A stretch of DNA of 64,000 nucleotides from Ehretia macrophylla (Eukaryota > Streptophyta > Magnoliopsida > Boraginales > Ehretiaceae). A program made the translations under genes and the position numbers. The DNA lies in NCBI GenBank assembly GCA_037974665.1, contig CM075767.1, forward strand, positions 4,861,501 to 4,925,500, in the 5' to 3' direction. Positions 19,701 to 62,080 of the stretch are shown here, piece by piece. Position 1 is the first letter of the stretch. Each line of letters begins with the position of its first letter. The notes under the pieces were generated by a model. The model did no database searches. It saw nothing but the letters and a program-made list of their open reading frames with translations, and was not told where the DNA came from.

Positions 19701-22700
19701 CACAACTCACCTTAGCTCATAACTAGCAAAAATCAAAACAAAAAATGCTGAAAAATACTGTAGCATAGCCGACAGCAGCAAACAGGAAAAAGAAAAAGAT
19801 TTTGCTCTTCAATCCTTCAATCCAAGCCTCTCCAAGCCTTGAGCAAGTAGTGTAGGGTGTGTGCAAGCTTCTTAGGTGCCCCTACGCGCATTGGTGAGGG
19901 ATTTCATGGCTTATTTTCGCATTTCTAAATAGTTGCCATTTTCTTGATTTGTTGAAAATGTGATCAAATGCTATTGTATTGATTATCTATGCTATTATAC
20001 CTTGCATAGGAGTGCTAGAAAACATATTTGAGCCATTGTTTCGCTTTTTAAACGGTTAAAATCGTTAGTTTAATTTATGAGGTGAATAGTGACGTTTTTC
20101 TAGGGTTTTGTGTAATTGCACGTATTAACTTGATTCAACACTCCTAATAGATGCCTTAGGTGCTAATGAAGGTAGTCTAATAGCCCCGTGCACTTGAATT
20201 ACTCTAGAATCGCATAAAACGTGAAATAGCCGACTTTAACAAAGGGGTTTCGGGGTTAATGCAAATCCGGGTGGATTTGGGCTTCACTTCTAGTATTCTT
20301 AGGCTACCTAGGTGCTATAGAAGCTTTGATAACCCTTGTTTGAAGCCCGGATATGGTATGTGTAGGTTAAAGCCATAAGAGGAATTTTGGGACTTTCGGG
20401 GTATTTGCGGGCGTTTGAATGAGTTAGAGGGTTGAAGGGGATCCTTGAGGGTTAGTTAGAAGGTTGGGAGAGTTTCCCTTTGAATTTGAATCATTAACTT
20501 GGGATTGGAAGAGAAATAGTGTGAAAAACAAAGGGGTTTAAGTGTAATTTCAGTTGTCTCACGCTTCTATGTCCATGGCATGACTCCTTGAGTGTTTAAA
20601 TGTGGTTTCAAGTTGATTTGGAGCTTTCGGTATGATTCCATGCTTATCATGTATATGTCCCTTTGTAAAACTGCTTATTTGCTTGTATCAACTGCTTCTA
20701 TTCTAACTGCATTGAGGTCAACCTACTTCGTTGATCCTCCTACGTGTTATTGCTTATCTTATTGATATTAACTTGCCATTGTAAAGTGCATTGCATAGTG
20801 GTTGCGCAACCATAGTGTCAGGGACGGATGTGTTGAATATCGGCTGGGCGGCAGAGGGCTTGCCAGTGGATATTCAAACTCCGTGCTCTATTCCCTCACT
20901 CGCCTGGTCCGGAGATTGCCAAGGGGTGTTGGGTCGTAGGATTATCGGGGTACATCCGGAGTACACCCACTGGAGTGTTTGGGGTTATGCCGGCTTATCG
21001 TGATCGTGATCGTGGTTCGTGGATCGTGAATGAAGACCCAGTGAAGATTGGTGTATAGGGGTTATGTGAAATGTATCCTTTCAAATGTGTGGTTATTTAA
21101 GCTATCATTGTTTCTTGAATTGCTCAATTGTTATTGTTATTAACTGTATTACTTGTTGCATTGCACGCCCCGGGACCTTATCCCTCACTGGGCAACAGTT
21201 GTTGCTCATACCTCGATATATGTTTCAGAAGACGCTGAGGGTGATCCCCAGCTTGTTGAGTTAGTTGAGGAGGAGGAAGTTCAGACTGATTCTTTACCTT
21301 AGTTGCTGTGCCTGATAGCTTAAGGTGGTTTATATTCTTGCTGCTATGTGGAAGGCTCATCTGTTTATCTTATGTCCTATTTTGTAGCCTGAGGGCTATG
21401 TATATGCTTGTTGTACAAGTTGAAGGATAGTTGATTGTGGTGTAGATTTGGAAGCCTATGTCTTGTAATAACTTATGTTTCTGCCTTTATTCACCTTGCA
21501 TGCTTGGGAGTGAATGGCTTAATGTAGAATGTTTTTATCTTCCAAGTATGTTTTAATATTATCCTAGAATGGCATGGCTATTAGCCTATATTGTAAACAA
21601 GTTACTTGCATGCTTGTGTGGTTTTGGAACTGTTGTTTCCTTCAAGGCTTGGATGGCCTTGAATCTTTAAATATTTAGCCATGAAAAGCTTGTTATCTTG
21701 TGGTTACCTTATTTGAGAGTTTATAGGTTTTCAGAATGTCCACGGTACAAGGGAGACTCTGTCCGTGTGTCGGGTCCGGACTTAACTTCTAGCTTGGGGA
21801 TTGGGTCGGGGCGTGACAGTCCATTCAACCCACGATCCTAGGATATCTTTAAACCTGACAAAGATCTTTGCAAATATTCCAAAGCTCTAAGTAAAAGCTC
21901 CCAATTTATATTTTTTTCTGTGAACAGAATATCAAGATTTCAACTTACCACTCTGCATCATCAATTTGCATATTTGTTGGTTTCTCAACGATTGCCAGTC
22001 CATTTACAACTACAAATCGAACACGCTTTTCCTCTTGTATCACTAGTTCAGGAAACCTCGACCTTGTTTCAAAAGAAGTTGCCAATTCCCGTCTTTTAAA
22101 TGTGCAAGGTCCTGTATACATGAAGCACGTTTTAGAAAATTCATAATTAAAATTCTTTGTCGAACAGTACAAGGAGAAATAATGTTTTGACTTAATGTTA
22201 TTCGCATGTTTTGTTAAGAATTAAGGCAAAATGCAATACTTTAAAATAGGTATCAGAGAAGAAAATGAAATGAAAGCGCACCCACATTGCCATGAGAAAG
22301 GATCATAACAAGTATACAAGAAAGCAAACTTAAGAGCATCAAATAGAGCTGAAGTGATTACTAGTTCCTCTTAATAATGTTGAGGCACAAAAAATAGCAG
22401 TGTGTGGAAATAAAGTTCAAATCCAATGGTTAACGAATTAAGGTCTCCCGTATCCAATGTTCTTTCATTAAAATACCGATATTGGCAAAGTGAAAAATTC
22501 AAGTTAGTTGGCTCATCATTCACTACCCCCCATCCCCTCCCATTTTCCCCAATTTAAGAAGAGAAGAGATGTTGATACCTTTCCTCGGAAACTTTTTGGC
22601 AAGCTTTCTATACAGACCACCAGCGGCTTCAAGAGCCACGCCAACTGTTTTCTCCCGCATGCCATTCAAAGAGGACAGCCTTATATTGACTTCATTAACT

Positions 22701-25700
22701 AATGTCTCATATATGTTTGCAACATACATCAAAGGCAAAACATATCGCGAATCGCCTTCATAATGCATCTCTCTTGACTTTCTCTTGCTTAGTTTATGTT
22801 GCACAGATTGAGCCATGAAGTCAGCCTCCGTGTCTGAAACTTCTATGACATGAGGGTTTATAAAATGATCCACGATGATGTCCAAAAATCTTGCCCTTGC
22901 TGTTTCAATTGGTGAAACATCTAGTTCGATATGAAACTAAAATCAGCCCGTTTGGAAGATGAAAAAATTTGGTCCCTCGCATTCTTCCGATTTTAATAAA
23001 ACAAAACAGAATACGTAATTGCTTAGCAAAAAAAAAAAAACAGAATACGTAATTCGAGAATCACCATCCATGGTCAAAATATTGTAGCTGGCTGTTGAAG
23101 AACTGCTGTTCTCCAGGCTAGCTCGATCTTCCTCTACCGCTACGCTGTGAAGTGGTAAAGAGCTCCTGTATGATTCGTGCATGCAGTCCTGAAAATGTCG
23201 ACATACAAAATTAGTTGTGAAGGACCATGAGTTGTTCGAGCCTATCAAAGCAAGGTCTTCACAGAGTAAATTTACCACTGCATTACCATTGTCAAAAGTT
23301 CTACAATCTCTTTTACAAACAGAAAAAGCTTTAAGATTCATATAAAGGTTGAAAATTATCAGACCGGAAGCTTCAATCAGACCAAAAATAAAATAAAAAC
23401 AGCCCCGACAAGGAACATGCGAGCAATCGCCTTGAACAACAAGATTCAGCTTCTGTGTTCAAGTAGCTTGAGTAATTAAACAAAGTAGAAAAGCAGAACA
23501 CATGTCCATACCGAATCTTCTCTCTAAAGAAATGACATATTAACAAGTGAAATCCATATTCATGACCTATACAACCCTAAAATACAGAATGTTTTAAGAG
23601 ATTAAAATTACCTATACAACTCTGACATATTAACATTGTTTTGAATAGTATGTTAATGTATATATTCCATAAATGCATTTGAAAATGTAGTTCTTAAAGG
23701 CATTTGCAGCCAAAACACAAAACAAACATGATTTTCAGCCTTTTCATTTAGCTAAAATAGCAGCATTCAAATAACATTAAAAGCAAAATTTATGATGCGG
23801 AACATGATTCAAAAGAGTTGATGAAAAAGATTGACAAAATCAAACCCAAGAAGAAGAACAAATAAACCTTCATATTTTTCTTATGTTATGAATAGTATTG
23901 TTTTGTTATGAATAATACCATTTAGTTTGTTTTATCTCACATAAGAAGTTTAGCAAATTTTAAGGCCTAAGAGCTCCTATAAATAGATAGCTCCCCAAGC
24001 TTATTAAACACACCTCAATTAATACAAAGCTAGTATTGTATACTTCCTCTCTAGCATTCTAGAGTTGTAATATTTAAAGTTTTCCTTATATCAAGGACGT
24101 TTTGCTAGAACGAATCTAGTGTTTCGCTTCTGTTCTGCGTCAGTTGGCACCAGAGCCAAGTTCGAGAGTCCTAGTTTAGAGGGTTGTAGTTGTAATTGAG
24201 CCGTATGCTCTGCACTTGCCACTAATAGTGGACCCTGTGCATCAGAAAGCTTGATTGGTCGATTGAGTCGTATGCTCTGCACTTGCCACGTATAGTGGAT
24301 CCTGTGCATCAGAAAACTCGACCTATTAAATTACAAACCTATAAGCCGGAGAAGATGGCGTCCAAGAACAACAATGGAGGTGGAGATAGTGGCAACGTCG
24401 AAATCAACATTGCTGGTAGTAGCCATAGTAGAGGTGAAGGCGGCCATCCTATTGACGGTGATCGAGGGATGGAGGCCCTTTGGGCGGTGATACAAGCTCA
24501 AGAAGAAAATGTGACTCGTGAAATCCGAGAGATTCACGACATCCTTTCCAACTTAAGCCTAAACGCCAACAGGACTCGTGACGATGGTGGGATCAACCGT
24601 GTCAGAGAAGATGCTCATGGCCAACCTATCAATCAACGCAACCTAATTCGTCATAGGCAACCAGCCTATGAAGATGAATCTGATGAAGAACTCCTAAACT
24701 AGCGAGGAATCAACCAAGTACAACCACGAGCTAGAAATCAACCACAACATCCTCATCAACATGGTTTTGCTCGACATCGCAGACTACCAACTTATGAGGA
24801 GGAATCTGACAGTGACGAAGAAATAAATCAAAAGCATCAACATGCACCCAGGAGAGGACAAAGCTTTGACGAATATTATCCTAAAGCCGACATTCCCAAC
24901 TTCAACGGCGATCTTAATATTGAAGCATTTCTTGATTGGTGCTATGAAGTTGAAAAATTCCTTGATATGATAGATGTACCGGAGGACAAACAAGTAAAAC
25001 TAGTCGCCTACAAATTAAAGGGCGGTGCAGCTGCTTGGTGGGACACCTTGCAAAACAATAGAAGGCGATAAGGAAAGGCACCCGTTCGGACTTGGAGAAA
25101 GATGAAACAACAACTGAAAGGAAGATTTATTCTTCCAGATTATGAACAATACTTGTTCCAACAACTGATAAATTTCTGCGCCTTACTGCTAGGTGCAATA
25201 TGTCAGAGTCGGAGGAACAGCAAACATCACGATACCTTAACGGCTTGAAATTTGCAATCCGGGAGAGGATGACATTAGCTCCAATATGGGCCGTTGATGA
25301 AGGTTACAACATGGCATTAAAGGCAGAAATGCTTTTGGCTCGTCCTTCTACTCGACAAACTCCTTTTGCACCAGTCCGTTCGAATCCTGACAAAAGCAAA
25401 CAAGTTGCAGAAGAAGCAACTCGTCCTTCTACTCACAATACTGGCACTAGCAATCAAGGAATGGCCAAATCAATCAGACAGGCGTCGAATACCACCCGAC
25501 CCAATAATCCATATGCTAGGCCAACCATTGGAAAATGTTTCAAATGTGGAGAACCTGGTCATCGTTCCAATGAATGCCGAGCTCGCAAGTTTGTCAATCT
25601 AGCAGACTATGATAATGAGTGTGACGAAGAAGTTGAGTACAATAATGATGATGACTTGGAGGATGCAGAAATTGCAGATAAAGATGGAGACCAAGTGACG

Positions 25701-29684: not shown

Positions 29685-29742
29685 TTCTTACTTTCAAAAT
29701 TTTATTCGCCCTCCAAAATTACACACCACCACCCCTCACTAT

Positions 29743-29774
29743 TCTTCTTCTTCTTCTTCTTCTTCTTCTTCTTC
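29743..29774 (-). repeat. (GAA)n microsatellite in the host gene leader
   Basis: Uninterrupted TTC repeat on the plus strand (GAA on the sense strand), about 60-90 bases before the start codon. GAA repeats are common in plant 5' leaders. The transcription start is not identifiable. Confidence 0.85.
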
Positions 29775-30890: not shown

Positions 30891-31430
30891 GCCTGGGAAA
30901 ATAAGCAATAGTTATTGCACCTCACATGGCACGAAATATTGGGCCAAGGAAACAAGCCAAAGTAATAAAGAAATTCGGTTAGAGTAATAGGCCAAGCCCA
31001 TCGCAGAATAAAGGCCCAAGATACTCAGCCCAATGTGGTCCAAGCCTTGCCCAACAGGCACTGACCCAATCAACCAAATGTCAACTAACTCTTCAAAAAT
31101 CATAGGTCACAATTCACTCCAAAATCTATGGGTTAATATCTCTACTAAGGTGCAAGTATATTCTACAAAATCGGAGCTCCCTATAATGGGTATAAACCTT
31201 CTAATTATAAATACATGAGTTTACTAGTTCAAAATGATAAATGATTCTTACTCACTATTTGCTATTTGTTCATTTGTTTTTACATAAACACTCTTTGATC
31301 CTCATAACTGACTTAAATATAGAAAAAAAACCTCAAACCTATTTTGTTTTATAGGTCTGGAGACCAACGAAATTATGAAATCCAAGTCTGGTTTATCGTT
31401 CGAGACCAACCAAGTTAACTATCCATAACA
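30890..31430 (+). mobile_element. Tat-like gypsy LTR remnant
   Basis: It shares the late-LTR block with the Tat-like LTR at 32.3-32.8 kb: a TATAAATACA-like box near 31207, TTCTCACTA-like motifs and TGATCCTCATAACTGACTTAA near 31299 (compare 32670). Ends are not clear and no internal region follows. Confidence 0.5.
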
Positions 31431-36485: not shown

Positions 36486-37345
36486 TGTGAGACTCGAGCA
36501 TGAACAAATGTTCATTTATCTATTTTAATTGTTACATGAAATAATATGTGCATTTAATTACCTATTCTATCATTTGAATCTACTTATGCATTTGAATTTG
36601 CATTTAACTTCAATTTGAATTGCATTTCATCTAAATTGCCTAGAGATAAACTTGTAAAATTATGCATGTATTGAAGGGTAAAATAGTCTTTACACTATTA
36701 AATATTTCTAGCTTGGTATAATTGCAATTTGAATAAGATAGCAAGGGGTGTTTAGTCTTTTAGCATTTTAGACATCTTAGCCACCACATTTGACTTAATT
36801 TGACATGCATTTAACTTGAATTTGGTTTGGAATTTGACCTAACATTGACCATGCCTTGACCCTTATATCATCAAATTAAGCAAACCAACAAGGAGGAAGA
36901 AGAGTTGGTCGGCCACAGGAGAGAGAAAGAGAGAAAAATTATTATTTTGGGTTTTTTTTTGACATTTTGATGCATTTAAAAGTGGATTTTGGCAAAACTC
37001 ATCTCTAGCATTCTTATTCCTTGCATATCTAGCTTTCTAGAAATACCAAAGGTGAGGGATTTCTTGTATTCTATGTGTAGATCATGTTGTATATACTTAT
37101 AAACTTGTTTTATGTTTAGAAGTTGTTTATAATACAAGAATAACTATTCTAGTGCTTGTTTTATGGTATATATGGAATAATATGTGCTTGTTGCTATGTA
37201 AATGTTTAAAGAATGTTTCTATGGAGTTATATCTTGTGTTGGAAGCTACATATGGTCTTTTACAAGTGCTCATATGTGTTAACACTTGAAAACTAGTTTC
37301 TAGCTTCGTGTTCGATCGTGCGTTTAAACAATTAAACATGTTTGC
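36486..37345 (+). mobile_element. Gypsy LTR, 5' part only
   Basis: Begins TGTGAGACTCGAGCATG, comparable to the TGTRAAACCC starts of the other LTRs, and contains AAAGGTGAGGGATTTC at 37048-37063. It is cut off near 37345 by non-coding copia sequence. Confidence 0.55.
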
Positions 37346-38186
37346 AGATAGAACACAGCAATAAGTGAATCCATCACAGTGATACACCTAATTCATATAG
37401 TAAAACAAATGGAAAAATAGTAAGTAAAGGACACACGGTATTTTAACGTGGAAAACCCAACTGGAAAAAAAACCACGTGACCAATCCTTGGTTGAAATAG
37501 GCAATCCACTAAATGTTTTCTTAGTTACAATAGTCAATGGACTTATGTGATTGACAACTCCCTTGTAACCCTCACCGCCTAGACCATCTAAGCCACCTAA
37601 GGATTACAACCTAGCGAGATTCCCTCGACTTAGCGTATTCTCCCGAATACTCGCCTCCTTCTCCTGAATGATGTTTAATGAAACAAATGAGTATAGTGAT
37701 TACAAACAAAATATGCTCAGTACACTCATAGTGCTAAAACAAACTCTCACCACAGTGTTTTCCAAACAGACTCGATAAACACATTACAGCCCTTATAAGA
37801 TCTAGACTTTGCTCTCCGTCCTCTGTCCCCACTTGATCCTTGAGAGATTATCAATAGATATAGGTGTGAGTGCTGTAATCTTGGGCTCCAAGCATCCGTG
37901 AACATTATTGACCTTTGTAGGAGTCTTTAACCAAGTCAATCTCTAAAGATTTGCTCAATTAAAATCTTCTTTGCCTTATCAAAATCGTCTCAACATAATT
38001 ATAGTTGCAGCAAATTGATCTCTTTTCATATAAGATAAATCCTGCACAATCTTTTACCAAAACAAGGCAAGATTTGTGTTGCCAAAAACAAAGCCAAAGG
38101 GGAGCTTGTTAGCCTGTCCAAAATTTAGCCCGAGATTACGCTCATTTGATAATTGTTACACTCTACCGGTTCCATCTAACTAGGCT
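37346..38186 (+). mobile_element. Non-coding copia-like sequence
   Basis: Contains AACGTGGAAAACCC at 37447-37460, a motif common in plant copia LTRs. Near 38080-38110 there is a GCCAAAGGGGAGCTTGTTAG stretch that looks like a copia polypurine tract running into an LTR start. No gene. Boundaries are soft. Confidence 0.4.
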
Positions 38187-38575
38187 ATGGTATGCCTTAA
38201 CAGTTCAATTCAAATCACTGAACTGTGGCATAAGAAGTTAGGTCATCTAAATGTTGATATGCTAACCAAGATTGCCAATGAAGGAATTGTTAGGAGAATC
38301 CCTAGATTATTAGGAAATAAGGAAGAAGTTTGTGGTCCATGCCAATTGGGAAATCAGATTCGAGCTCCTCCACACAAGAAAACACAACAGTTAGCCACGC
38401 ATAAAGTTTTAGAACTATTGCACATGGATCTCATGGGTCCAGTTCAAACAGAGAGCTTGGGAGGTAAGAAATATATCTTTGTGTGTGTTGACGACTTTTC
38501 CAGGTTTATATGGGTGGACTTTCTACGGGAGAAATCCGAAACCTTTCAAGCCTTTCGAAAATTGTGTTTGCGGAT
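38187..38575 (+). mobile_element. Copia integrase fragment
   Basis: GAG-pre-integrase and integrase start: LWHKKLGHLNVDMLTKIA, CGPCQLGNQIRAPP, LLHMDLMGPVQTESLGGKKY and CVDDFSRFIWVDF. The style is of the SIRE/Tork group. It stops near 38575, where sequence of another copia type begins. Confidence 0.85.
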
Positions 38576-40203
38576 CATCTCAATATTCGGACTATGTTGC
38601 TCTCCAGTCTACTACAATTTTCACCTCTGCTTCTAAGTCCCTCAACTTTGAATCTCACACATATACTCAGGCCTCCAAATTTCCTCACTGGCGCAAGGCC
38701 ATGGATGCTGAGTATAATGCTCTCATTAATAATGGCACATGGATTCTTGTTCCTCTTCCCCCAAATGCTAATGTTATCAGGTGTAAATGGGTTTTTCGGG
38801 TCAAACGAAAATCCGATGGCTCTATTGAGCGACACAAAGCTTGTCTAGTGGCGAAAGGTTATAACCAGGACAAAGGGGTTGACTATTCTGAAACTTTTAG
38901 CCCTGTCATTAAACCCACTACTATTCGAGTTGTACTCTCACTTGCTTTTTCGCAGAAATGGCATATTCGACAAGTTGACGTTAATAATGCCTTTCTGCAT
39001 GGTCTCTTAGATGAGGATGTCTACATGGCTTAACCTCCAGGTTTCACTCATCCGTCTTATCCTCATCATGTCTATAAGCTCAAGAAGGCATTGTATGGTT
39101 TGAAACAAGCCCCTCGAGCGTAGTTGTCTAGGCTGAGTTCGTGTCTTTGTTCTTTTGGTTTCATTGCATCACAGTCTGATTCCTTGCTTTTTATCAATCA
39201 TCGTACCACACATGTGCCTTATGTTTTTATCTACGTAGATGATATATTGATCACTGGTAGTGATGCTAGTGCTATTAATGCTCTCATTTCTTTTCTGCAT
39301 AGACAGTTTGCACTAAAAGATCTTGGTCAACTCTAATTTTTCTTAGGTGTTGAGTTTCATCATACTCTTGGAGGTCTTGTGCTTACCCAGACTCGTTATA
39401 TTTTTTATCTACTTAAACGGGCTAACCTTGATGGTACTAAGCCAATCTCCTCACCTATCACCACTAATCATAATCTTTCCCTTCACTCTAGTGATCCATT
39501 TCACAATCACACTTTGTATCGTAGTATTGAAGGTGCACTTCAATATCTTACTATCACACGTCCTAACATTGCCTTTGTTGTGAATAAAGTCTGCCAGTTT
39601 ATGCATTCCCCAACTGATCCACATTGGTTTGCCGTTAAGCGCATTTTGTGATATTTAAAGGGTACTATGGCATATGGGTTGACAATCCGGAGGTCTTCAG
39701 ACCAGGTTTTACATGCTTACTCAAATTCAGATTGGGCTAGTTGTCCGGATGATCGTCGCAGCACACATGGGTACTGCATTTTTCTAGGTCCAAACTTGAT
39801 TTCTTGGTCTGCGAAAAAGCAAACGACCACTGCCAGGTCTAGCACTGAAGCGGAATATCGAGCCATTGCCTTTGCAACTACTGAATTGTATTGGCTTCAG
39901 TCTCTGCTTCGAGAGCTTCATATTGCTACCTCCTTACCACCCACTTTATGGTGCGACAATATTGGAGCTACATACTTGACAGCTAATCCTCTCTTTCATG
40001 CCAGGACTAAACATATAGAAATTGATGTGCACTTTGTGCGAGAAAATGTGGCTTCCGGAGCTTTGCATATTCGTTTTATCTCTATTGTTGATCAAATAGC
40101 CGACATAATGACAAAAGGGACTCTCTATTACATGTTTCTCTCTACTTCGGTCCAAGCTCACCATCTTCAGAAACAAGAGCCTAAAAGCATGTTTCTAGCT
40201 TAG
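38576..40203 (+). mobile_element. Copia RT-RNase H fragment (different lineage)
   Basis: RT and RNase H of a copia element: [78 protein letters not shown] and [14 protein letters not shown]. The sequence style resembles the copia at 6866-12028 more than the integrase directly upstream. Several breaks. Confidence 0.88.
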
Positions 40204-40915: not shown

Positions 40916-40940
40916 TTGGATAACCTACTTTGTTCTCCAA
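40916..40940 (+). other. LTR hairpin A (loop CTACTTT)
   Basis: TTGGATAAC pairs with GTTCTCCAA (one mismatch) around the loop CTACTTT. Confidence 0.55.
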
Positions 40941-40969: not shown

Positions 40970-40997
40970 AAGAGACAACCTACGTTGTTGATCTCTT
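40970..40997 (+). other. LTR hairpin A, second copy (loop CTACGTT)
   Basis: AAGAGACAAC pairs with GTTGATCTCTT (one bulged A) around CTACGTT. It lies about 30 bases after the first hairpin of this LTR. Confidence 0.55.
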
Positions 40998-41747
40998 TAC
41001 ATGATGCGAATATGTGAATATGTTTGATGTGATGCGATGTGAAGCAATAGATTGCAACTTTTAGTGCGTCATAGTAGTGTCGTGTCGTGCTGGGTAGCAT
41101 AGGGCTTACCGGTAATTGCATGACTACCATGTACTAGTCCCTCTCTTGTGTAGTCGATAAAGGCCATAGGGTGTTAGGTCGTAGATTCACGTACATCCGG
41201 AGTACACTCGCGGGAGTAATAAGTGTTATGCAATGAGTTCGTAAGGGAGTTATAAGTGTGGGCACCAACAATGTTAAGCGGTATCCTTACAATGTGAATT
41301 TATATAACTTGGTTGAATTCAAGTTATAATGCGATGTGAATGCAAATGCAATTATATGTTGTCTTTAATGTGTTTCAAAGGACTTTCAGGTTAAAGCTTA
41401 CAAAACTTCCAGTTACCTCCTTCATTGAGCCTGTTTAACTTACCCCTCTTTATATGCATGCTACAGATGAACCCGAGGATTGATTATATGCGAGAAAAGA
41501 ATGAGAATATGACTTATGTTTATGTATTTGGATTACGAATACAATGTTTATGCTTTTAGTAATTATGTTATATTATAAGGCATTTGAACTTATATTGTAT
41601 AATTGACTAAGTCTTGTATTTTGAAGCCTAGCTTCTTTTGTTGTATATATAGATGGTTGATATGACCATAATTGCAACACTCAAACCACTGTATTTCTAC
41701 TACATTTGCATCATAAACTAGGAATAAATGCTACATTTATATACTTT

Positions 41748-45592: not shown

Positions 45593-48087
45593 TGTAACGC
45601 CCCGATCCCTCACGAGACCGGAGGCTCTAACGACCATGCTAATCTCAACCCAATACTAAGCCCGGTCACAAAATTTTTCCTAATGGTTAAGTCCGGACCC
45701 GACACACGGACAAAGTCTCCCCTGTACCGTGGACATTCTGAAAACCTGTAAACACTCAATAAAGCCACAACATAACAAGACATTCATTTATAACTAAAGA
45801 TCTTAGCTTTAAGGCCATCCGAGGCTGAAGACATACAAACAGTTTAGATACAGACAAGCATGCATACATAACTTAACTTCTTTACAAATCGGGTTATCAT
45901 GACACTCCATGATAGATTTTAAGTATTCTTAATAATTAAAAAGAACCAATCATTCACTCCCAAGCATGCGAAGAAGCTAATAGCAGAAATATAAGTTATT
46001 ACATGCCATGGTTCTAAATCTACCACTACAACATCTATCCCTCAATTTGCAAACTATATAATATACACATATCACTTAGGTTACAAAATAGAACATAAAG
46101 TAAAGAAAACAAGTCCTACTCTCATCAACAAGAACATAGTCCACCTCAGTCAACTAGTCACAGCAACTAATGCAACTCCTTCAATTGCGCCACCTGAAAC
46201 ATGTTAGCGAGGTATGAGCAAGCACTGTTGACCAGTGAGGGATAAGGTCCCGGGGCGTGCAATGCAATAGGTAATATAGTTAAACAACAATAACAATTAG
46301 ACAATTTAAAGAACCAATGATAGCTTAAATAACCACACATTTAAAAGGATACATTTCACATAACCCCTATACACCAATCATCATTGGTCTTCATTCACGA
46401 TCCACGAACCACGATCACGATCACGATAAGCCGGCATAGCCCCAAACACTCCAGTGGGTGTACTCTGGATGTACCCCGATAATCCTACGATCCAACATCC
46501 CCTGGCAATCTCTGGACCAGGCAAATGAGGGACTAGAGCACGGAGTTTGAACATCCCCCGGCAAGCCCTCTGCCGCCCAGCCGATATTCAACACATCCGC
46601 CCCTGACACTATGGTTGTGCAACCACTATGCAATGCACTTTACAATGGCAAGTTAATATAAATAATAGAAGCAATAACACATAGGAGGATCTACAAAGTA
46701 GGTTGACCTCGATGCAGTTAGAATAGAAACAATTATATAAGCAAATAAGTAGTTTTACAAAGGGACATTTACAAGATGAGCATAGAATCATACTAAAAGC
46801 TCCAAATTAACTTGAAACCACATATAAACACCCAAGAAGTCATGCCATGGGTTTAGAAGCGTGAGTCAACCGAAATTGCACCTAAACCCCTTTGTTTTTC
46901 AAACTATTTCTCTTCCAAACTAAAGTTAATGATTCAATTTTCAAGGGAAACTCTCCCAACCTTCTAACTAACCCTCAAGGAACCCTTTCAACCCTCTAAA
47001 TCATTCAAACGCCTACCAATACCCCGAAAGCCCCAAAATCCCTCTACCTCGTCCGGGCTTCGAACAAGGGTTATCAAAGCTTCTATAGCACCTAGGTAGC
47101 CTAAGAATACTAGAAGTGAAGCCCGAATCTACCCGGATTCGCATTAACCCCGAAAGCCCTTTGTTAAAGTCAGCTATTTCATGTTTTATGCGATTCTAGA
47201 GCAATACAAGTGCACGGGGCTATTAGACTACCTTCATTAGCACCTAAGGCATCTATTAGGAGTGTTGAATCAAACCAATACGTGCAATTACACAAAACCC
47301 TAGAAAAATATCACTATTCACCTCATAAATCAAACTAACGATTCTAACCTTTTAAAAAGTGAAACAATGGCTCAAATATGTTCTCTAGCACTTATAAACA
47401 AGGTATAATAGCATAGATAATCAATACAATAGTATTTGGTCACATTTTCAACAAATCAAGAAAACAGCAACTATTTTAAAATGCGAAAATAAGTCATGAA
47501 ATCCCTCACCAATGCGCGTAGGAACTCTCGGGAGGCTAGCAAACACCCTAAACTACTTGCTCCTAGCTTGGCTTGGCTTGGCTTGAAGATTTGTTGAGCA
47601 AAAATCTCTATTTATCCTCCTATGCTATTCTCGGATTTGCTACAGTAATTCCTGCATCTTCTTTTTTTTTTTCGTGTTTTGTTAAGTTATGAGCTAGGTG
47701 GTGTTGTATGAGCATATATATTAAATGGGGTCAAGTTAGGTGCTTAGTGGTCCACTAAAATGAACGTTGATAACCTTAAAATAAGCCTAAGGTGAAGAAT
47801 ATATGCTAGCTAATTAAATTACTAAATTATGTTGCGTAACACTATTCATTGACCCATTAAAACATTTTCTAACCGAGTGCTCCTATCGCTCCTAGCTCAA
47901 TTGCACATTTTTCTCATTCCTTTAACAATTAATATGATTTAATAAAAATGCTAATTCACTAATATAATGCAAGTTAAAAATGAAATGAATAGTGACCAAG
48001 AAAGACAACAGGTAAAACACAGAATTTAATGCGCAATTAATGGATGCAACATTTAAAAATGTGTACGGTAGAATCTCGGGCATCACA
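45593..48087 (-). mobile_element. Solo LTR, Ty3/gypsy, copy 2 of the 2.5-kb family
   Basis: 2495 bp, minus strand, starting TGTGATGCCCGAG at 48087 and ending GGGGCGTTACA at 45593. A perfect duplication ATAGG lies on both sides (45588-45592 and 48088-48092). It matches 19323-21818 end to end. No internal region, hence a solo LTR. It carries the same GGTGAGGGATTTC motif (about 47498-47510) and hairpins. Confidence 0.95.
46685..46710 (-). other. LTR hairpin A (loop CTACTTT)
   Basis: GAGGTCAAC pairs with GTAGATCCTC on the minus strand, with one mismatch. Orthologous position to 20714-20739. The equivalent of hairpin B lies at 46215-46234 but pairs less well. Confidence 0.5.
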
Positions 48088-52396: not shown

Positions 52397-52757
52397 TGTG
52401 AAACCCCATATTTTATCTATACGTAAAATTGCATGTTTTGACCTATATATGTGTTATCTGAGTTAAAATACACAAATCTTGTGATTTATACTCCTATTAC
52501 ATGCTATGTGAGCATTCATGAAAGTTTCATAAAAATCGGCATTGAAAATTTTATCGTCAAGTTTTATGAATAGTAATTTTGAAACATGTCCGCTAAAATT
52601 TTGAAACTGGTCTTTTTAGTGTTTGAAAATCTATTCCTCAGAAATTAACAGACCCGTGTTTGGTTAAAATAGATTTTAAATAAGATTAGGAATTTTAAAG
52701 GCTTTTACACCTTCTTTTGTAAAAATTGAGTTTTATAGCTATTTGTATGTATATGTA

Positions 52758-53007
52758 TGTAATATCTCACATCGGACGCAGAGGTCTTTGGGCTGCTTGA
52801 TATATAGAGTTCGCTCGTATATCGTGACAACGCGTTTTCCTGGCAGTGGCTGGGAGAAGCAAAGTCGTGAGGGGTATGGGCTCCAAAGCGGACAATATTG
52901 TCATAGTGCGCTTCCGGGCCCACTCGCCATGGCCTCGGTGCTCGCTTGGACCGTTAAGGCCAGGGAGTATCCTGTAGGCATGGGAGTATTAGTTTCAGGG
53001 CGTTACA
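52758..53007 (+). repeat. TRIM left terminal repeat
   Basis: 250 bp, starts TGTAATATCTCACATCGGAC and ends GGGCGTTACA. Contains a GATATATAGAG box that could act as TATA. Confidence 0.95.
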
Positions 53008-53074
53008 AATATGGTATCAGAGCCGACGCGTTTGCATGGCCAGCGAGGACGCTGGGTCCCCAAAGGGGGGCGGG

Positions 53075-53324
53075 TATAATATCCCACATCGGACGCGGAG
53101 GTCTTTGGGCTGCTTGATATATAGAGTTCGCTCGTATATCGTGACAACGCGTTTTCCTGGCAGTGGCTGGGAGAAGCAAAGACGTGAGGGGTATGGGCTC
53201 TAAAGCGGACAATATTGTCATAGTGCGCTTCCGGGCCTACTCGCCATGGCCTCGGTGCTTGCTTGGACCGTTAACGCCAGGGAGTATCCTGTAGGCGTGG
53301 GAGTGTTGGTTTCGGGGCGTTACA
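53075..53324 (+). repeat. TRIM right terminal repeat
   Basis: 250 bp, the same length as the left copy and about 96% identical by eye, ending GGGGCGTTACA. Confidence 0.95.
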
Positions 53325-54332
53325 ATGTATGCATATGAAAATGTTGTCACCTATACTTGAACTACAAAATATAGTTTATATGATAAATATATGTGTAAGT
53401 AAGTAAAATAGTCTAAAATACAATTAAAAGACTAGAAAATACAATTAAAAGACTAAAATTGGCGACTTTGACTTGGCTTTAGTTATTTGACTTTGCATAT
53501 ATATACATAATACATACAATATATCATATAACAAAGCTCAAAACACCTCCAATTCTCACCTACATGGCTGAAACCCCATAGACAAAAAAAGAGAGTTTTT
53601 CAAATATTTTTCAAAGCAAATTTTCTTGAGAAAACTCATTTGAAGGCCTTGTCATCCAAAGTTGAATTTTGCTTGTTGGGCATCCATTGCATACATTTCT
53701 AACTTCATTTGGCATCAAAGGTGAGAGAAAAATTCTAGATCTAAGAATGCTATTTTTTGTCAATTTCATATAACTGTATTTCTATCCGATATTTTGTTGA
53801 ATTGTCTTTAGATTATTGCTCAATAGTTGCCAAGGATCATTTATATGTATTTATAGCTGTTTTGATCGGTAGTAGCATGTATTTCTATTTTTCGGGTATT
53901 AAAGTTGAGTTATTGGTTCATTGTTGAATAATTGTTGTTGTAATGGTTGGAATTGATTGGTTGTTGCTTCTAAAAGCTTTTTAATTGCGGGGTAGTAATG
54001 TTGTAATGCCGAATTTTTGATTGGAATGTTGTAGCAAAAGTCCAAAAAATTCAGCCTTGATACATTGCCAAATTAGGGTTGCTGGGCTTGATTTGGATGG
54101 CTTTTGGTTGGTTTTCAATGGGGCTAATGTAGTTGCATGTGTGGTGGAGTGATAGGAAGTGGTTTGGAGGTTATTGGATTAGTAGAATGTAAGTTATGAA
54201 TTTTGGAAGTTTGTGTAGTCTTTCTTTAAAATGTTGAAATGTTGCCTTTGGTTGTTGGGTAGTGTTTGTGTAGTTGGTTCTTGAGTTATTGTAAGCTGGG
54301 TTCGGGATTGAATGCATGTTTAAATGTATGTT

Positions 54333-54363
54333 AAGTTGGGTGACCTACTTGGTCATCTAACTT
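54333..54363 (+). other. LTR hairpin A (12-bp stem, loop CTACTTG)
   Basis: AAGTTGGGTGAC pairs along its full length with GTCATCTAACTT (two G-T pairs) around CTACTTG. This is the longest stem of the set and has a sequence unlike the others. Confidence 0.65.
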
Positions 54364-54435
54364 AGTAGTTTTAATTGTCTAATTGATGTAATATTGAATA
54401 GAATGTTATTAATTGATTGATGATTGATGATGATC

Positions 54436-54465
54436 TGGAGGACAACCTACTTTGTTGTCTTTCCA
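54436..54465 (+). other. LTR hairpin A, second copy (loop CTACTTT)
   Basis: TGGAGGACAAC pairs with GTTGTCTTTCCA (one bulge) around CTACTTT, about 70 bases after the first. Confidence 0.6.
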
Positions 54466-54834
54466 AAATATGAGATGCTTATGATTATTGTCATGAGTTT
54501 TGATAATGTGTGCCACCTCTCGGGCAACTTCGGGCTGTCGGGTTGATAACGGCATGACTATCATAGACTACCCTCAGCTGGCATTGACGGAGATGCCATG
54601 GAGGGAGGGGCTAGATGAAGTACCTTGGTTATGTATTATGGGAGTTATAAGAAGATGGTTGAGATCGTGATGGCGTATGGAGCTACACCAACTAGTATAT
54701 CTTTTCACATTGAATGGTTATTTATGTGGTTGAATTGAAATGTTGATGTTAATGAAGTTGTTGTTATTATTGTTCATAGGATGATTTCTCAAAGGGTAAA
54801 GTAAATGCTTTCAAAAGATCTTTCGAATCCTTAC

Positions 54835-54858
54835 TGAGCTTTGTTATATATAAGCTCA
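54835..54858 (+). other. LTR hairpin B (TGAGCTT/AAGCTCA)
   Basis: A 7-bp stem with a TA-rich loop, followed within about 30 bases by a pyrimidine-rich stretch and CATCAG. Confidence 0.6.
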
Positions 54859-55414
54859 CCCTCATTCGTTTATTGTCATCAGGTGTAACTGAACCAGATT
54901 TAGGGTATGTCTCTCAGGAAGCTGAGTATGTGCCTTCTGTGGATGAGTCTTATGTGCTCGCGTCCTATCCTTGATGTCGTGGCTGAATTTCTATTTTGAT
55001 GTCTTGTATATTAGAACATGTGGTATTGTATTTACTTTGAGGTCATATTGTATAAGATGTTATAAAGTTAGTGGAACATATAATGCTAGTTTAGTTGTCT
55101 TACTTTTGGAACTTGAATAGGTTGTTAGACTAGCTTAATATATATATTATGCATGTGTATGGTTGGCTTATAGTTGATGTTGGAACGGAGGCGTATAGCC
55201 TATGGGTGAACTGTTGAATGGTTGTTTAATATATGGAAATGGTTGTGTTGTATGTTGATGAAATAGTTGTGGAGTTGTTGTTGATCTTTGGAGTTGGCTG
55301 TATGAATTATAGAGGGTTGGCTTAGATCCCTGATGTTCGTGTTACAGTCGTTATACTGCTGAAATTCCGTTGCGTCCTAACTGATCATAAATGGGGTCGA
55401 GTTGGGGCGTGACA

Positions 55415-56201
55415 ATACAAATCTTGGAAGACATGCTAAGAGCTTGTGCATTGGATTTTGGAGGGACATGGGAGAAACATTTGTCGTTGGCAGAGTTTGC
55501 GTACAACAACAGTTACCAAGCAACAATTGGCATGACACCCTACGAGGCTTTATATGGAAGGAAGTGTAGATCACCTCTATATTGGAGCGAGGTCGGTGAA
55601 ATGAAAACCATTGACCCTACATTTTTACCAAAAATGATAGAGAAGATAGGTAATGTGCAGTTGATTCAGAAGAGAATGCTTACCGCCTAAAGTAGGCAAA
55701 AAAGCTATGCCGATAGAAGAAGAGACTTGGAGTTTGAAGTGGGTAATAAGGTGTTTTTTAATATGTCTCCACGGAAAGGGTTTATTAGGCATGGCAAATG
55801 TGGCAAATTAAGTCCGAGATACGTGGGACCATTCGAGATCGTGGATAGAATTGGCAAGTTAGCATACCGGTTGAGTCTACCAACAAATCTCTCTGGTATA
55901 CACGATGTGTTTCATGTCTCGATGTTGAGAAAGTATCAACCCGACCCTTCTCATATCTTGGAGCCGAAGCCACTACAACTTTGTGAGAACCTCTCCTATC
56001 AAGAAAGGCCCATGCAAATTTTAGATGAACAAGAATGGGAATTACGTAGGAAGAAGATTCCTATGGTGAAGGTATTGTGGAACAACCATGGAATTGAGGA
56101 AGCAACCTGGGAGTTACGTGATCAAATGGAGAAGCAATATCCGGGATTGTTTTCAAGGTAAAAAGAAATTGTGAGGATACAATTATTTTAAGGCGGGGAG
56201 A
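55415..56201 (+). mobile_element. Second Tekay/Del-like element: integrase C-terminus and chromodomain
   Basis: Starts abruptly at the end of the previous LTR. Encodes the end of the integrase core ([52 protein letters not shown]) and the C-terminal GPFEIVDRIGKLAYRL / FHVSMLRKY part. A chromodomain follows with VKVLWNNHGIEEATWE. A purine-rich TTTTAAGGCGGGGAGA follows, then the 3' LTR. The preceding element probably inserted into this one. Confidence 0.92.
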
Positions 56202-57572
56202 TATAAAACCCGACACGAGAGCCTATACGTAATTTCACTATTAATGATGCATTCATATCATTTCATATGCATTAGCATTAATTTGTAAGCAATAATGTCA
56301 TTTACCGTGTATTTTCATCATTTTACGTGCATTTGTGTCGTATAACGTGCATTTGTGTGATTTAGATATCGTAGGAGTTAAATAAACTACATTACACTAC
56401 GTTAATGAACCAAACCAATAAAACTATAACTAAATGGAAAACTAGTAAGAGTGCATCTAGTTGGAAGGCAATTTGGTCAATAGGACCTTTAGATATTTCT
56501 TACCCGACATAAAACACACAACTCACTTTACACACACACACACACACATCTGATCATACACACATACATACGTCTAAACACACACATATGATTGAGAGGA
56601 AAGAAGAAAATAGAGGAAGAGAAAAGAAGATGAAGGGAGATTAAGCTATTTTCTTGCATCTCCTAACTCTAGCTTGCATCTTCAACATCAAATCTAGCAT
56701 TCAAACTCAAGAACAAGGTGAGGGATGATTTTCCAAAAGCTTTGTAAAGTCATATAGCTTGTTATATAACTCTACGTGTATGTATTGAGCTTGTTAATGA
56801 TAGACATAGACTTGTGTTGAGTAATGGAGGTTGTCTTGAATACCTAAGGTTCAATGTTATGTGTAGTGTTCTATGAATCTTGCTTAAATCCTTGAATACT
56901 AGTATGATGTTGATATGTGTGTTGTACATGTGTTTGGCTTGCTAGAAGTTGGGATTGGGCTATCTTAGTTGTCAAGCTTGGGTGTGTGAATTAGTAAAAG
57001 ATTGTGTTTTTCCGTAGACAGCACAACCGGGGGACCCCCTATTCCACCGGTCGACCGGTAGAGGACCCCTCTTCTACTGGGGAGGCTTCGGTCGGAAGAC
57101 CTTATTTGCACCGGTCGACCAGTTGCTCTAGGGTCTACCGGTTCGATCAAAAGATTTAGTGATTTCGGGAACTACAGAGATCGGATTGGGGCACGGTCAG
57201 AAGCGTTAAAACCGTATCGAACTCTAGTTTATTATAGTAGAATTAAATTGTGGATTTGTGCCACAAGTTGAGTGCTATATTGTTGCCAATTCCTATATGA
57301 TGTTTGGGAGACTAAAGAATGTAGGCAATATTGATGAATTTTGTTAGTTTTATAGCATGGTTTGTTATCATCAAAACCAAGATTAGAAGCCCTTTGGGCT
57401 AACAGATAATAACTTGTTTCATGAGCGTTCTTGGGGATTAATTGAGGCATAACCATGGTATATATGAGAAATGTTTGCATGACATACGAGTAAGCGGGAT
57501 GTGTGAATTGATTATTGAGCATTGTACATTCATAAGTCATGTGTTAATTGCATTTGTTTATACTTGATTACT

Positions 57573-57595
57573 GGGGCAACCTACTTTGTTTCCCT
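57573..57595 (+). other. LTR hairpin A (loop CTACTTT)
   Basis: GGGGCAAC pairs with GTTTCCCT with one internal mismatch around CTACTTT. Confidence 0.5.
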
Positions 57596-57974
57596 CCTCT
57601 CTATGTTATTATTCGTGACATGTTTACAATGTTAACAACTACACACGCGACAGTTGTAACCACAATTATGGGTATGGTAGCGTTCGTTTCCCCTGGGTAC
57701 ATAGGGCTACCAGTCACTCTCAACTACCATGGGCCTCGGTAGATATCCAGATATCACCTAATGTTTAGAGTTTGAGGAAAAGGAATGAAGATTGAATCAA
57801 GGTCGGCCGACTGCAACAATTACAAGGAAAACAATATCCTTTGATATATGATAAAAACTACCTTCGCTTGGTTCCTTGAGGACCTCGGAGGGTAGAGCTA
57901 TGTGTTAATACTTGTTCATTATTGCTTCGAAACATCAAAACTCTTGTGAAAATCCCCTGCTTGTTATCCTTCAT

Positions 57975-57995
57975 TGAGCTAAATGGTGTAGCTCA
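57975..57995 (+). other. LTR hairpin B (TGAGCTA/TAGCTCA)
   Basis: A perfect 7-bp stem with a 7-base loop, followed by a pyrimidine-rich run and TTTCAG. Confidence 0.6.
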
Positions 57996-58454
57996 CCCTT
58001 TTCGTGACAATCTTTCAGGTGAGGCCGAGCCTGAGCTAGCAGCTCAAGCCGAAGGCAAGGCATACTTGTGTGACGAGTCGGAGTTCTACTTGTTGTGATC
58101 CTGCTTGCTTGTATTGTTGGATATTTTGATGTTATGAACTAAATTAATTTGAACAACTTCAATGACTGTAATATTATTTTGGATGTTGGGTCGTAACCAC
58201 TCTACTATTTTATTCTTTTGGGGCCTATGAGGCATTGACGACTTGTAACATGCTTTGATGTGGAGTACTAGGCCTTGTATATATGCAACAGGTTATTGAA
58301 GGTTGAAGTGCCATTAGTTTGGGCACCCTTCTTGAAGTTACTTGTGGAATTTATAATGTTTAGGTTATGAGTTGATGATTGTACAGGTTTATCTATCTAG
58401 TACACGTCATGTTCCAGCCTTGTCTTAACAATGGGTTGGGGTCGGTGCGTGACA

Positions 58455-60261
58455 AGCCATGAATGTCTTAGGATCATAATCATTATCTTTAGATGGCAAG
58501 ATTTCAATCTTCTCTCTCCTTTTATGCTTGGCCGAAAAAGGTGAGTGGAAATAGAGAGGTTTTTGTCTTCATTTGATTATAATATAATATAATATATATA
58601 TATATATTATTAACCTTACTTTATTATATAGCCAATCATAATTGCTTTCTTCTAAAGTTAAATCAGACAAAGCCATGTAAATCCTAGGATTGTAATCATT
58701 GCAATCCAAAGGTTAACTTTATTCTCTCTCTTGACATTTGGCAAAAAACACTTATCTTCAAAAGTAAAGGCTAGGATTAGTTTGTCTTTATTCAAGACTT
58801 AATCCTAGCCATTCAATTCAAATTCAAATGACTAGGATTGATGACATGGACTATCCTAGTCATCAATCTCTACAAGAATACACCACATGTACATATCTAG
58901 TCACTAATTTGCAATTCTCTTTTGGCGACTAGGATGATGACGTGACATTTCACAAATTACATCACCATAACATTTATATATATATATATATACACCTTTA
59001 TATATAAATATATTATTTTTGCCCATTCTAATCTCTATTAGAATAAATACGTTGAAACTACTTTTCAATAATTACAGTTTGGCCTCAAAAGTTTTGATAA
59101 TTATAATTTGACTCCAAAACTTTTTGAAATTATACTTTTGGCCCAAATACCAACATAGATGACTCTTAATACCTTAAAGCCACCAACCACATTATACAAG
59201 ATTCCGGTGAACTTATTCATGATACTTATTAGTGTGTCACCTTTTAGATTCATAATCGCGTACCGATGAGGGACCGATAAACCTCCTTATCTATTATGGA
59301 AATGTCTCCGCCATTTACCGAAATACTCTCATGCTCATGAGTGACGTACTAGCAACGAGCATACCATGAGAATGTATACGATAATGAAGATGACGTCTTT
59401 TATGAATCCATTTAACCGTCGAGAATTAGCGTGTAGTCCAATCTTTCTATTAAAATGTCCCGAACAGGAAAAGACCATGAAATTGTTAAGTCCACCTCCG
59501 ATACTATGAATAAATCTGAACCGGTGAAACGAGAGATACTACTATGGAAAAACCTCTTTCCATTAGTTCATACTCACCTCGGCCAAGGACTTCCTCGCTT
59601 AACGACCGATCTCAGATATCATAGGACATCGGCTCGTGCCGAAGGTTAACAGATCCTATCTTGACAATTATCTGTCAGTTCATATCACAAAACTAAAATA
59701 CGAAAGGTCATAACCTACCTTTTGGAAGACGGGCATTGTCTAAACGCAGTATTTAGCCCGTGATATAACCGGCAGTCACAATTTCTCAAGTTTGAGGATT
59801 AATTTGCACAATTCTTAACTAAATAATAAACTATTAACCTGAAATCATGCAGTTCACTATTTATTGTCACATTCAATGATCCGTACACTGACGATCACTC
59901 ATATGTTTATTAGTCCACATCATCATGTTGTTTTGGCACTTCGCACGCTATCCTTTATCATTAACATCACTTTGTTAATCAAAGGTAATAACATATGATA
60001 ACTCGTACTTGATTATTCTAGTCCCAGTTGAATAATCTGAAAGGCTATGAATCGATTCTTAATGTTTATCATATAGAAGAAAAACTGCGAAATATCTTAA
60101 ACATTTTTAGAACATTTTTCTTCTTGGATAAACATTAGGGACACATTCATATTGAAGTGAAGAATATGAACATCCTTGAAATAACATAGTGTACAAAACA
60201 CATTAATATATTCTTATTAAGCCCGAATTCAAGGCATCTCAACTAGGGCATATCCCTAACA
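58455..60261 (-). mobile_element. LTR fragment, minus strand
   Basis: On the minus strand it starts TGTTAGGGATATGCCC at 60261, the same family as 45546-48309. It is cut on the left by the second Tekay-like element. It contains AT microsatellites (about 58585-58610 and 58976-59000) and a loose internal repeat (58455-58500 resembles 58672-58715). No gene; the frame at 59455-59649 is chance. Confidence 0.65.
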
Positions 60262-62061
60262 CTTATGTGTTTACTTTAAATGTTTGCATATAATTATGTG
60301 ATTACTTTAATTAAATTCATTCATTTATTTGCACTATTTTCACATTTCTTGAAAAACTTACAAATTGTGTCTAATTAATTTGTACGAAATAATTATCTTA
60401 GTATTAAATTTATTTGGAATTAATTTCTTGCATTTAAAGAATTAGTTCTTATTATTTTCATTATATGTATAAGTAGCTTCGAGCTCAGAAATAATTTTAT
60501 TTTATTTTATTTTATTTAATTATTTGGCATGCATAATTATATTATTTAACCTATATCTAGTGCACGTTCATCGAATAAATTTCATTTATTGCATTTCAAG
60601 AAGATCCTAAGTGCCTAGTGTAACGCAAATGAATAGTAACCTATGTTAGACTTTTTATTTGGGCCATTAGATGAATTAGATTAGCTTTGGGCTATTATCT
60701 TTTAACTAAACTAAATTAACTAAGCCCATTAGGATGATTATGTATTCTTATAATTAGAAAAGAAGACCAAAAATTCAAAGAAAAATCTAGAAAAAGGAGG
60801 AAGGGTGAGTCGGCCATAGAGGAAAGAAAAAGAAGGAGAAGAAGAAAAAGAAAAGAAGAAAAAGAAGAAGAAAGAAGAGAATTCAAGCCAAACTAAGTTA
60901 ATTTCTTGCATATTCTCCATGCTAGGTGAGGGATTTCATCCTTTCATGCATTTATAAGCTCATTGATCATATAACTATATCATAGCCATCATTAAAGAAA
61001 CAAGAATATGTAGTTTATGTGTTTGAAAGAAGTCATCAATGAAGTGTTCATGATATTTATAGCAAGAACATGCTTGACTATACTTTAAACTAGCAAAAAG
61101 GCAAGAAAACAACAAAAGTGCAAGAGTGAGCTTGTGTGTGTGTTCGGCCTATGGCCTTTTTTCCTACCCCTTTGAGTTTTGTGAAACTAAACATGCTAAG
61201 TGTTGTCTATGTGTGTTGATAGTTAAGCCATTTTTGTGATAAAGTGTAGGTTGACTTGAGATATATGTTTAGTGTGTTACGTTAGTTAGTTAATGTCTAG
61301 CTAGAGTGTTAATGAATTAAAGCTAAGATCATGCTAATAATTGTGTCACCAAGAATGCTAGCAAGACATGAAATCAAGGAATATATTTGAATTATGTGAA
61401 TTATAGAATGTTATAAACCTTGCCTTATGCTATATTTTAATGCATGTTTGATAAGTGGTGCTTGTTTACAAGTGTAAATTTTAACTAAAGTTTGTATTTT
61501 GGTTGTAATGAGTTGAGTTAGCTAAAAGAAATGTATAAAGTATAGAGTTAAGTGAATGTATTGCCATCCAGGAAAATTAAAAGGTGTTAGTGAACTACTT
61601 ACATGTTAGAAGTTGGAAAATGTTAGCTAGATAAACTATTTTATGTGTTAATGTGTAATTGAGTTTGAATGGATATTTAACTTGTAAGGTTATGTGTTGT
61701 TAATGCTATGTAGTGAATCAAGGATGTGTTTAGAGTCTCGTGCATGTCAATGTGAATTGTCTAAAGGTATTTGTAATTCATGGTAACCAAGAATATCTTT
61801 AAACCATGTTTTGTACTTTAAAGTAAAGTAGAACTCGCTTGGTAACCTTGTTGAGTTGATTAGTTGTTAACCATCTAGAGTTTAGGTAAATTAAGCTTCA
61901 TGAATGCCAACGACCGTGTAATCCGTAAATGCTTCCATGTTATGTGCATTAAAGGATGTTCCAAGCATATCACTTAGTTTTAACTTAATGAAGTGCATGT
62001 TAAAGCGAATTTTAAATATGTTAGTGGACCTAATGCATGTTAATGTACATTTGCATGAGAT

Positions 62062-62080
62062 AGTGGCCTACTTTGTCACT
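62062..62080 (+). other. LTR hairpin A (loop CTACTTT)
   Basis: AGTGGC pairs with GTCACT (one G-T pair) around CTACTTT. It is a short stem of different sequence from the others. Confidence 0.5.

Follow-up and report, generated by a model that had tools for sequence, protein, structure and literature searches.

A conserved, covarying hairpin in gypsy long terminal repeats of Ehretia macrophylla and the predicted leader intron around it

Hairpins and host elements at the locus

The window analyzed here is a stretch of 64,000 nucleotides (C4:4861501-4925500) from the genome of Ehretia macrophylla (1.58 Gb, 20 contigs), whose repeats include both copia and gypsy reverse transcriptases. Gypsy long terminal repeats (LTRs) in it carry a short hairpin, termed H1, and further hairpins downstream in the same LTRs, termed H2, H3 and H4. 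H1 is a conserved, covarying RNA hairpin that stands in fixed order with the others, lies on the sense strand where this could be tested and occurs in tens of thousands of copies. It is real, abundant and compensatory, and forms part of a larger RNA domain of the LTR; its function we infer. Alongside the window we used a sample of twenty 10 kb loci (L001-L020) from set positions on ten contigs, one of which (L012) is nearly all N, and divided the LTRs among eight families, A-H. The comparative evidence comes entirely from contrasts between families within this one genome, whose copies and rows are related.

The initial annotation had placed eight such hairpins in the window, each with a CTACTT-like loop closed by a C-G pair and a stem that differed in sequence yet paired. 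All eight sites exist, and the seven starts given on the plus strand are exact: 20714..20739 in a family A LTR (loop CTACTTC at 20723), 40916..40940 and 40970..40997 in family G (the second copy with loop CTACGTT), 54333..54363 and 54436..54465 in family C (the first with 12 pairs), 57573..57595 in family E and 62062..62080 in family F. The eighth, a family A copy, is present on the minus strand at 46710..46685, but its stem is broken at the third pair; it reaches -7.4 kcal with the closing pair forced, and the free fold of its surroundings lacks the hairpin. The hairpin at 40916 is also absent from the free 90-nt fold and is formed by its 36-nt core. The C-G closing pair held generally, with T.G instead at one site (L019), and the stems are paired overall apart from one bulge or mismatch in several of them. 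Some LTRs carry two or three copies of H1 (spacings of, for example, 55, 98, 102 and 184 nt), as if the number per LTR were free to vary. A tandem duplication of the H1 region with a 98-nt unit lies at L010:6590-6793, and spacings of 98 and 184 nt recur on contig C1.

Adjacent to the LTRs are open reading frames (ORFs) with matches to Retrotrans_gag, RVP_2, RVT_1, RT_RNaseH_2, rve and SH3_Tf2-1, the first four being found in ORFs of L014 and L019; in L002, an integrase ORF ends just inside its LTR. All four ORFs tested gave a weak Chromo match (E 0.0016-0.008), below the Pfam cut-off of 25.1 bits. The host elements are probably chromodomain Ty3/gypsy elements (chromoviruses) of the Tekay/Del kind, a name that we assume from the domains. 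The family A LTR is 2.5 kb long (L018:3372-5874), has the ends TGTAAC...TTACA and a 5-bp target duplication (AAGAT), and carries H1 ~1.4 kb into its length; the family A copy of the window that holds H1-H4 spans 19323..21786 (+). After the LTR end, six loci (L033, L034, L038, L046, L048 and L049) have GG + TGGTATCAGAGC, which we take to be a tRNA-Met-type primer binding site (PBS). H1 was on the coding strand in 5/5 families that could be tested by PBS or ORFs. Two 249-bp direct repeats of 95.6% identity lie at 52760-53008 and 53077-53325 of the window, with a primer-site-like TGGTATCAGAGC directly after the first.

Abundance and covariation of H1

CTACTT was the top-ranked word among 7-nt hairpin loops in the window (3 compared to 0.16 expected, p 6.5e-4), an enrichment that is not significant in the window alone once corrected for all hexamers. 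In the 20-locus sample, 9 such hairpins were found compared to 0.39 expected (p 3.8e-10); seven other loop words outrank CTACTT there, and these probably come from satellite arrays. Each of the 18 exact CCTACTTTG words in the window and L001-L020 gave a hairpin at -5 kcal or better, as did 9.6% of 3,000 random C-N7-G sites and 5/35 of the one-mismatch CCTACTTTG words. Genome-wide, the pattern C-N12-CCTACTTTG-N11-CG occurs 6,248 times and its reverse 25 times. The enrichment in the sample, the 18/18 hairpins and these genome counts rule out chance as the origin of H1. Three differently paired inner stems account together for 61,338 exact copies genome-wide, compared to 45 for their reversed controls: CAAC/GTTG (CAACCTACTTTGTTG; 39,107 versus 1), TGGC/GTCA (TGGCCTACTTTGTCA; 14,844 versus 0) and TAAC/GTTA (TAACCTACTTTGTTA; 7,387 versus 44).

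A known Rfam RNA or ribozyme as the identity of H1 was ruled out by scans of the window, which gave no match at the gathering score, and of six loci, in which hits with E up to 0.5 were ribosomal RNAs and two matches below threshold, all of them away from H1 sites. A scan of the window for tRNA genes found none. A microRNA-like origin, and a likeness of the loop to pairing sites of small nuclear RNAs or tRNAs, were considered and dropped. For other hosts, exact matches were absent from IMG/VR (two patterns) and from prokaryote contigs (one pattern).

Changed stems with kept pairing had been proposed in the initial annotation to reflect selection on a fold in gypsy LTRs, and both pair counts and a double-change score support this proposal. 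The covariation set comprised 15 different arm pairs, all having the exact core and chosen irrespective of pairing and without energy selection, 12 of which came from 18 sites in the window and L001-L020 and three from words of genome searches. At pairs 2-5, 56/60 cells held standard pairs, a value as high as which was seen in 0/5,000 shuffles; the double-change score was 188 compared to a shuffle mean of 46.2, and again 0/5,000 shuffles reached it. Such shuffle tests overstate certainty, because the rows are related. In a wider set (18 arm pairs, selected in part for energy), 67/72 cells were paired at pairs 2-5, and 50/54 at pairs 2-4, compared to 17, 17 and 14 of 54 when the partners were slid by -1, +1 and +2. 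For pairs 2-5 of this wider set, neither the number of standard pair types (1,116/5,000 shuffles reach the value) nor the count of pairs showing a double change at all (1,037/5,000) was above shuffles. Rows left out of the wider set were window -34177 (core mismatch), L004 -3561 (also with a core mismatch, omitted by judgement though well paired) and the extra family A copies except L036.

Since the two arms of an inverted repeat largely share mutation type and near context, G.U- and A.C-type variants would be expected in about equal numbers were there no selection for pairing. Genome counts of variants of CAAC/GTTG gave 3,614 of G.U (or U.G) type versus 1,181 of the mirror-arm A.C type; these are copies rather than events, and a single family-wide change may weigh heavily in them.

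Downstream hairpins and splice-like signals

H2 and H3 lie ~100-270 nt downstream of H1. H2 is a predicted long hairpin with apex RGC-N5-GCT around GGGCGGC..GGGCTTGCCGG and a basal stem of CATGGTAG/CTACCATG in family B and TTGAATATC/GATATTCAA in family A. The window holds family A copies at 20833..20877 (+; apex GGC-AGAGG-GCT) and 46547..46591 (-), and an H2-like hairpin of family G at 41070..41131 (+; limits approximate). H3 reads GGGRTAC-ATCCGGA-GTAYCCC, with variants including GAGTAT-GTCCGGA-GTACTC and GGATAC-TTCCGGG-GTATTCC, and is found at 20947..20968 (+; loop ATCCGGA), at 46456..46477 in family A (-; loop ATCCAGA) and at 62331..62352 in family F (+; loop ATCCAGA). Its pattern occurs 21,895 times in the genome and the reversed pattern 0 times. 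Of the H3 places listed for contig C1 (67 below 4.34 Mb), 60 are preceded on the same strand by H1 at a distance of 185-235 nt, counting the YRAC..GTTG form of H1 only, and none has such an H1 on the opposite strand (random expectation 0.5). Many of the LTR families align with one another in short islands only, and such islands are shared at H1 and H3. Between H1 and H2, families A, B, D and F carry a self-complementary GGTTGCGCAACC or GGTTGCAACC (window 20800-20811 and 62189-62198; L018:4856-4867; L014:5669-5678; L017:679-690), a word that could be a dimer contact.

H4 has the form YACTGRG-stem-YTCAY and lies ~440-690 nt after H1; its stem sequence varies between families, and its branch-point-like YTCAY end is followed by an AG-free gap and a CAG. 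We scanned the window and L001-L020 for the H4 motif and pairing, blind to the following sequence, and found 15 hairpins. The first AG was a CAG at 12-35 nt in 13 of them, compared to 6.9% of 2,609 background YTCAY sites; the two exceptions were a match in the L009 tandem array and L017 -6700, where the first AG is AAG. The 13 hairpins with CAG include copies of one family and represent nine distinct hairpins. All 63/63 cells of these nine are paired, but the rows were picked for at least six pairs, leaving the double-change score alone informative; it was 122 compared to 28.9, and 0/5,000 shuffles reached it. The layout expected of a splice acceptor is a branch point followed by an AG exclusion zone and a 3' splice site, and H4 with its CAG reads as such a layout. 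On the plus strand of the window, H4 lies at 21186..21209 (ending in the branch-point-like CTCAT), 54832..54859 (family C) and 62751..62774 (family F).

A donor-like GGTGAGRGA occurs 15 times in the window and L001-L020; H1 follows 620-1141 nt downstream in 12/15, and TATAWA precedes by 194-223 nt in seven. Families A, B, C, E, F and H have AG|GTGAGRG or TTG|GTGAGGG (family D ends at a locus edge), with a near-match donor, AAG|GTGAGGGTT, in three of four family B copies. H1-H4 sit between a shared donor and a shared acceptor. These signals strongly suggest that all four hairpins are enclosed by a leader intron within the LTR, and a spliceosomal intron is very probably present in the leader, as predicted from them. 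On the plus strand, the predicted introns run from 19894 to 21228 in family A (donor TTG|GTGAGGG, acceptor TTTCAG), from 53721 to 54882 in family C (AAAG|GTGAGAG, ATCAG) and from 60926 to 62798 in family F (CTAG|GTGAGGG, TTTCAG). Further donor-like sites are CAAG|GTGAGGGAT at 56718..56726 (+), 862 nt upstream of the family E H1, and TTG|GTGAGGGAT at 47501..47509 (-), 807 nt upstream of the minus-strand H1; the scan found no H4 with either. A donor-like ACCAAAG|GTGAGGGATTTC at 37052 of the window precedes the family G hairpins by 3.9 kb; copia ORFs (38184-40203) lie between them, and perhaps a nested copia insertion has split a single LTR there.

Seven copies carry both signals; their predicted introns measure 1.16-1.87 kb and hold 26-69 ATGs each. 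T content in these copies is 16-32% in exon 1, 35-39% in the intron and 39-40% in exon 2, with mean T minus A of -13%, +11% and +14%, respectively. Thirty family A copies, picked by a match around H1, have the exact donor in 29 cases, H1 in 30, exact H3 in 27 and exact H4 with CAG in 24, and all four features occur together in 21. Family A is also found in tandem, with a period of ~3.59 kb made up of a 2.5 kb LTR and ~1.1 kb inside. The tandem LTRs are 97.5-98.8% identical to the L018 LTR; eight that were fetched keep H1, most of them with exact donor, H3 and H4. One-strand chains of family A, spaced every 3.59 kb or double that, lie at C2:56869309-56876788, C6:74142149-74149616, C11:44154773-44158655 and C16:62370286-62381334, and these LTR-internal-LTR units are probably tandem non-autonomous elements.

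Possible roles of the hairpin domain

The initial annotation is supported as to H1 but missed the other three hairpins and the flanking donor and acceptor signals, on which our preferred explanation draws: H1-H4 lie in a predicted LTR leader intron and act in cis on unspliced RNA, an explanation that we consider about evenly poised between right and wrong. Since the hairpins sit within the predicted intron, they would be present in unspliced RNA only. Splicing would remove H1-H4 together with a leader of 1.2-1.9 kb rich in upstream ATGs, and the spliced RNA would then be suited to gag-pol translation. RNA that keeps the intron would carry the hairpins and serve as the genomic copy for export, packaging and reverse transcription, with H1-H4 acting in cis either to hold back splicing or to mark the RNA for export or packaging. 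Splicing of the intron, the setting of RNA fate by the hairpin domain and a reader protein are what we infer.

Several observations weigh against the intron explanation. The donor motif was chosen post hoc, by means of a scoring matrix, and the H4 scans were empty for families E and G and for family B copies L001, L010 and L020. Families C and E have no recognizable H3, and that of family G pairs poorly. T content is as high in the predicted exon 2 as in the intron, unlike the usual plant exon, and two of the three family C copies (C_L005 and C_W) show an A excess in exon 1 of nil or 1 point. The genome has no copy of the exact junction predicted for family A, which neither proves nor refutes splicing. 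The domain does not clearly stand out by low folding energy (minimum free energy of 150-nt windows; Mann-Whitney p 0.06); folding-energy z-scores did not discriminate and were dropped as proof. The rows compared are related and from one genome, and copies are not independent events. Finally, one subfamily (LTRs of L018, L017 and L001) lacks H1 and keeps donor-like sites and H4; its copies with an 11-pair H4 lie on the minus strand at L018 8275 and 1226, L017 6700, and L001 5513 and 306. Aligned with L019, four of these five copies (the two L018 LTRs, L017 and one from L001) have 61-64% identity to it over the H1 stretch, compared to 82-94% in the two adjoining 200-column blocks. H3 was found in L018 only, and neither H1 nor H3 was found in the L017 and L001 copies. 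A joint loss of donor and H1 in this subfamily proved wrong: the H1 stretch alone diverged, and donor-like sites are kept (GTAAGGG in L017).

The subfamily bears on a different proposal, that H1-H4 form a packaging or dimerization signal read by Gag and that the splice-like signals are of little matter. Gag shared in trans would explain why poorly alignable, partly non-autonomous families keep the hairpins; the tandem family A units, with only their ~1.1 kb inside, do keep H1, and the self-complementary GGTTGCGCAACC or GGTTGCAACC between H1 and H2 resembles a kissing or dimer site. However, the L018 element, whose LTRs are 97.7% identical and which has no ORF of at least 130 amino acids, keeps donor, H3 and H4 and has lost H1, which disfavors a simple packaging role, and the proposal leaves donor, branch-like site and AG-free acceptor unexplained. 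We consider it unlikely; H1 may be replaceable, or its role may lie in splicing or export more than in packaging. A role as a transcript-end structure, for polyadenylation or termination in the R region, fits hairpins that lie inside the LTR and, in copies found to have a TATA box, downstream of it, but appears improbable: no AATAAA occurs within 740 nt downstream of H1 in 14 LTR stretches scanned, and a CAG after an AG-free gap suits splicing better. Plant poly(A) signals are weak, so the lack of AATAAA is not decisive.

Two further explanations concern the pairing itself. The hairpins might lack function, their similarity being inherited and their inverted repeats kept by recent amplification or by gene conversion between arms. 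The number of pair types not above shuffles and the unremarkable folding energy are in keeping with this, and few independent changes may underlie the counts because these come from few large families. Nevertheless, stems differ with loop and pairing kept between families that are poorly alignable elsewhere, and A.C-type variants are threefold rarer than G.U-type, making absence of function very improbable. Inverted repeats extrude in DNA too, and the feature might act as a cruciform or a dyad-symmetric protein site; the G.U excess is not decisive for RNA, as G.T is somewhat tolerated in DNA. We find a DNA-level role hardly credible given the strand-specific loop CTACTTT, the order H1-H3-H4 fixed on one strand, the bulges in one arm and the sense orientation in 5/5 testable families.

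The arrangement proposed here recalls the packaging signal of retroviruses, a structured leader RNA that lies downstream of the major splice donor and is thus present in unspliced RNA only. The likeness drawn is one of layout, and here everything would lie inside the LTR. With Tekay/Del chromoviruses the host elements share reverse transcriptase, RVP_2 protease, integrase with SH3_Tf2-1, a putative tRNA-Met-type PBS and perhaps the weakly matched chromodomain. CRR, among the intron-bearing elements compared below, is a chromovirus. In contrast to what we propose for our LTRs, the excerpts of PMC6317226 name neither a structured domain in the LTR nor an intron in its leader for Tekay/Del. The barley copia elements BARE1 and BARE2 are alike in splicing, in having a non-autonomous partner and in drawing on separate RNA pools to translate and to replicate, but they are not gypsy elements and their 104 nt intron, as excerpted from PMC3735527, lies at the gag-pol border rather than in the LTR leader. 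Ogre, CRR and Bagy2 are plant gypsy elements with introns, and only part of Ogre transcripts is spliced; in the excerpts of PMC3735527, PMC6317226 and PMC12786077, their introns are between or in coding regions or serve env, and are not in the LTR. The MusD MTE and IAP RTE of mouse, structured cis elements that export unspliced LTR-element RNA (excerpts of PMC12786077), are likened by role only. Retrozymes are non-autonomous plant retrotransposons with structured RNA in the form of a hammerhead ribozyme (excerpts of PMC4918200), from which the window differs in its lack of an Rfam match at the gathering score.

A broad 2013 study of LTRs left those of plant Metaviridae (Ty3/gypsy) unmodelled, with length variation as the reason (excerpts of PMC3601003), and a 2025 review treats plant LTR elements as generally without introns, Ogre and EVADE being the exceptions (excerpts of PMC12786077). 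The words retrotranspos, transpos, repeat and gypsy do not occur in the excerpts of PMC12218528, on new structured plant RNAs, and H1 is not described in the excerpts of PMC3601003, PMC12218528, PMC12786077, PMC3735527, PMC2832683, PMC7730604, PMC6317226 or PMC4918200. The view that no named LTR element has this shape agrees with our search, which found none in the portion of the open-access literature covered, though a description elsewhere is possible. Among the matches listed from that literature, none describes an LTR leader intron in chromoviruses, and those to two 11-letter sequence words have titles that concern unrelated subjects.

If true, an intron common to these LTRs, with its covarying RNA domain in tens of thousands of copies, would provide an anatomy for the lineage and a means of finding LTRs by structure. 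It would also permit a direct test of how RNA is divided between protein and genome in plant retroelements. We tentatively raise the possibility that plant chromoviruses possess a retrovirus-like RNA fate switch wholly inside the LTR, in which the four-hairpin intron would hold some of the RNA back from splicing and mark it as genome, and the spliced RNA would be translated. Such a switch, if true, would help explain the long LTRs and the islands shared by diverged and non-autonomous families.

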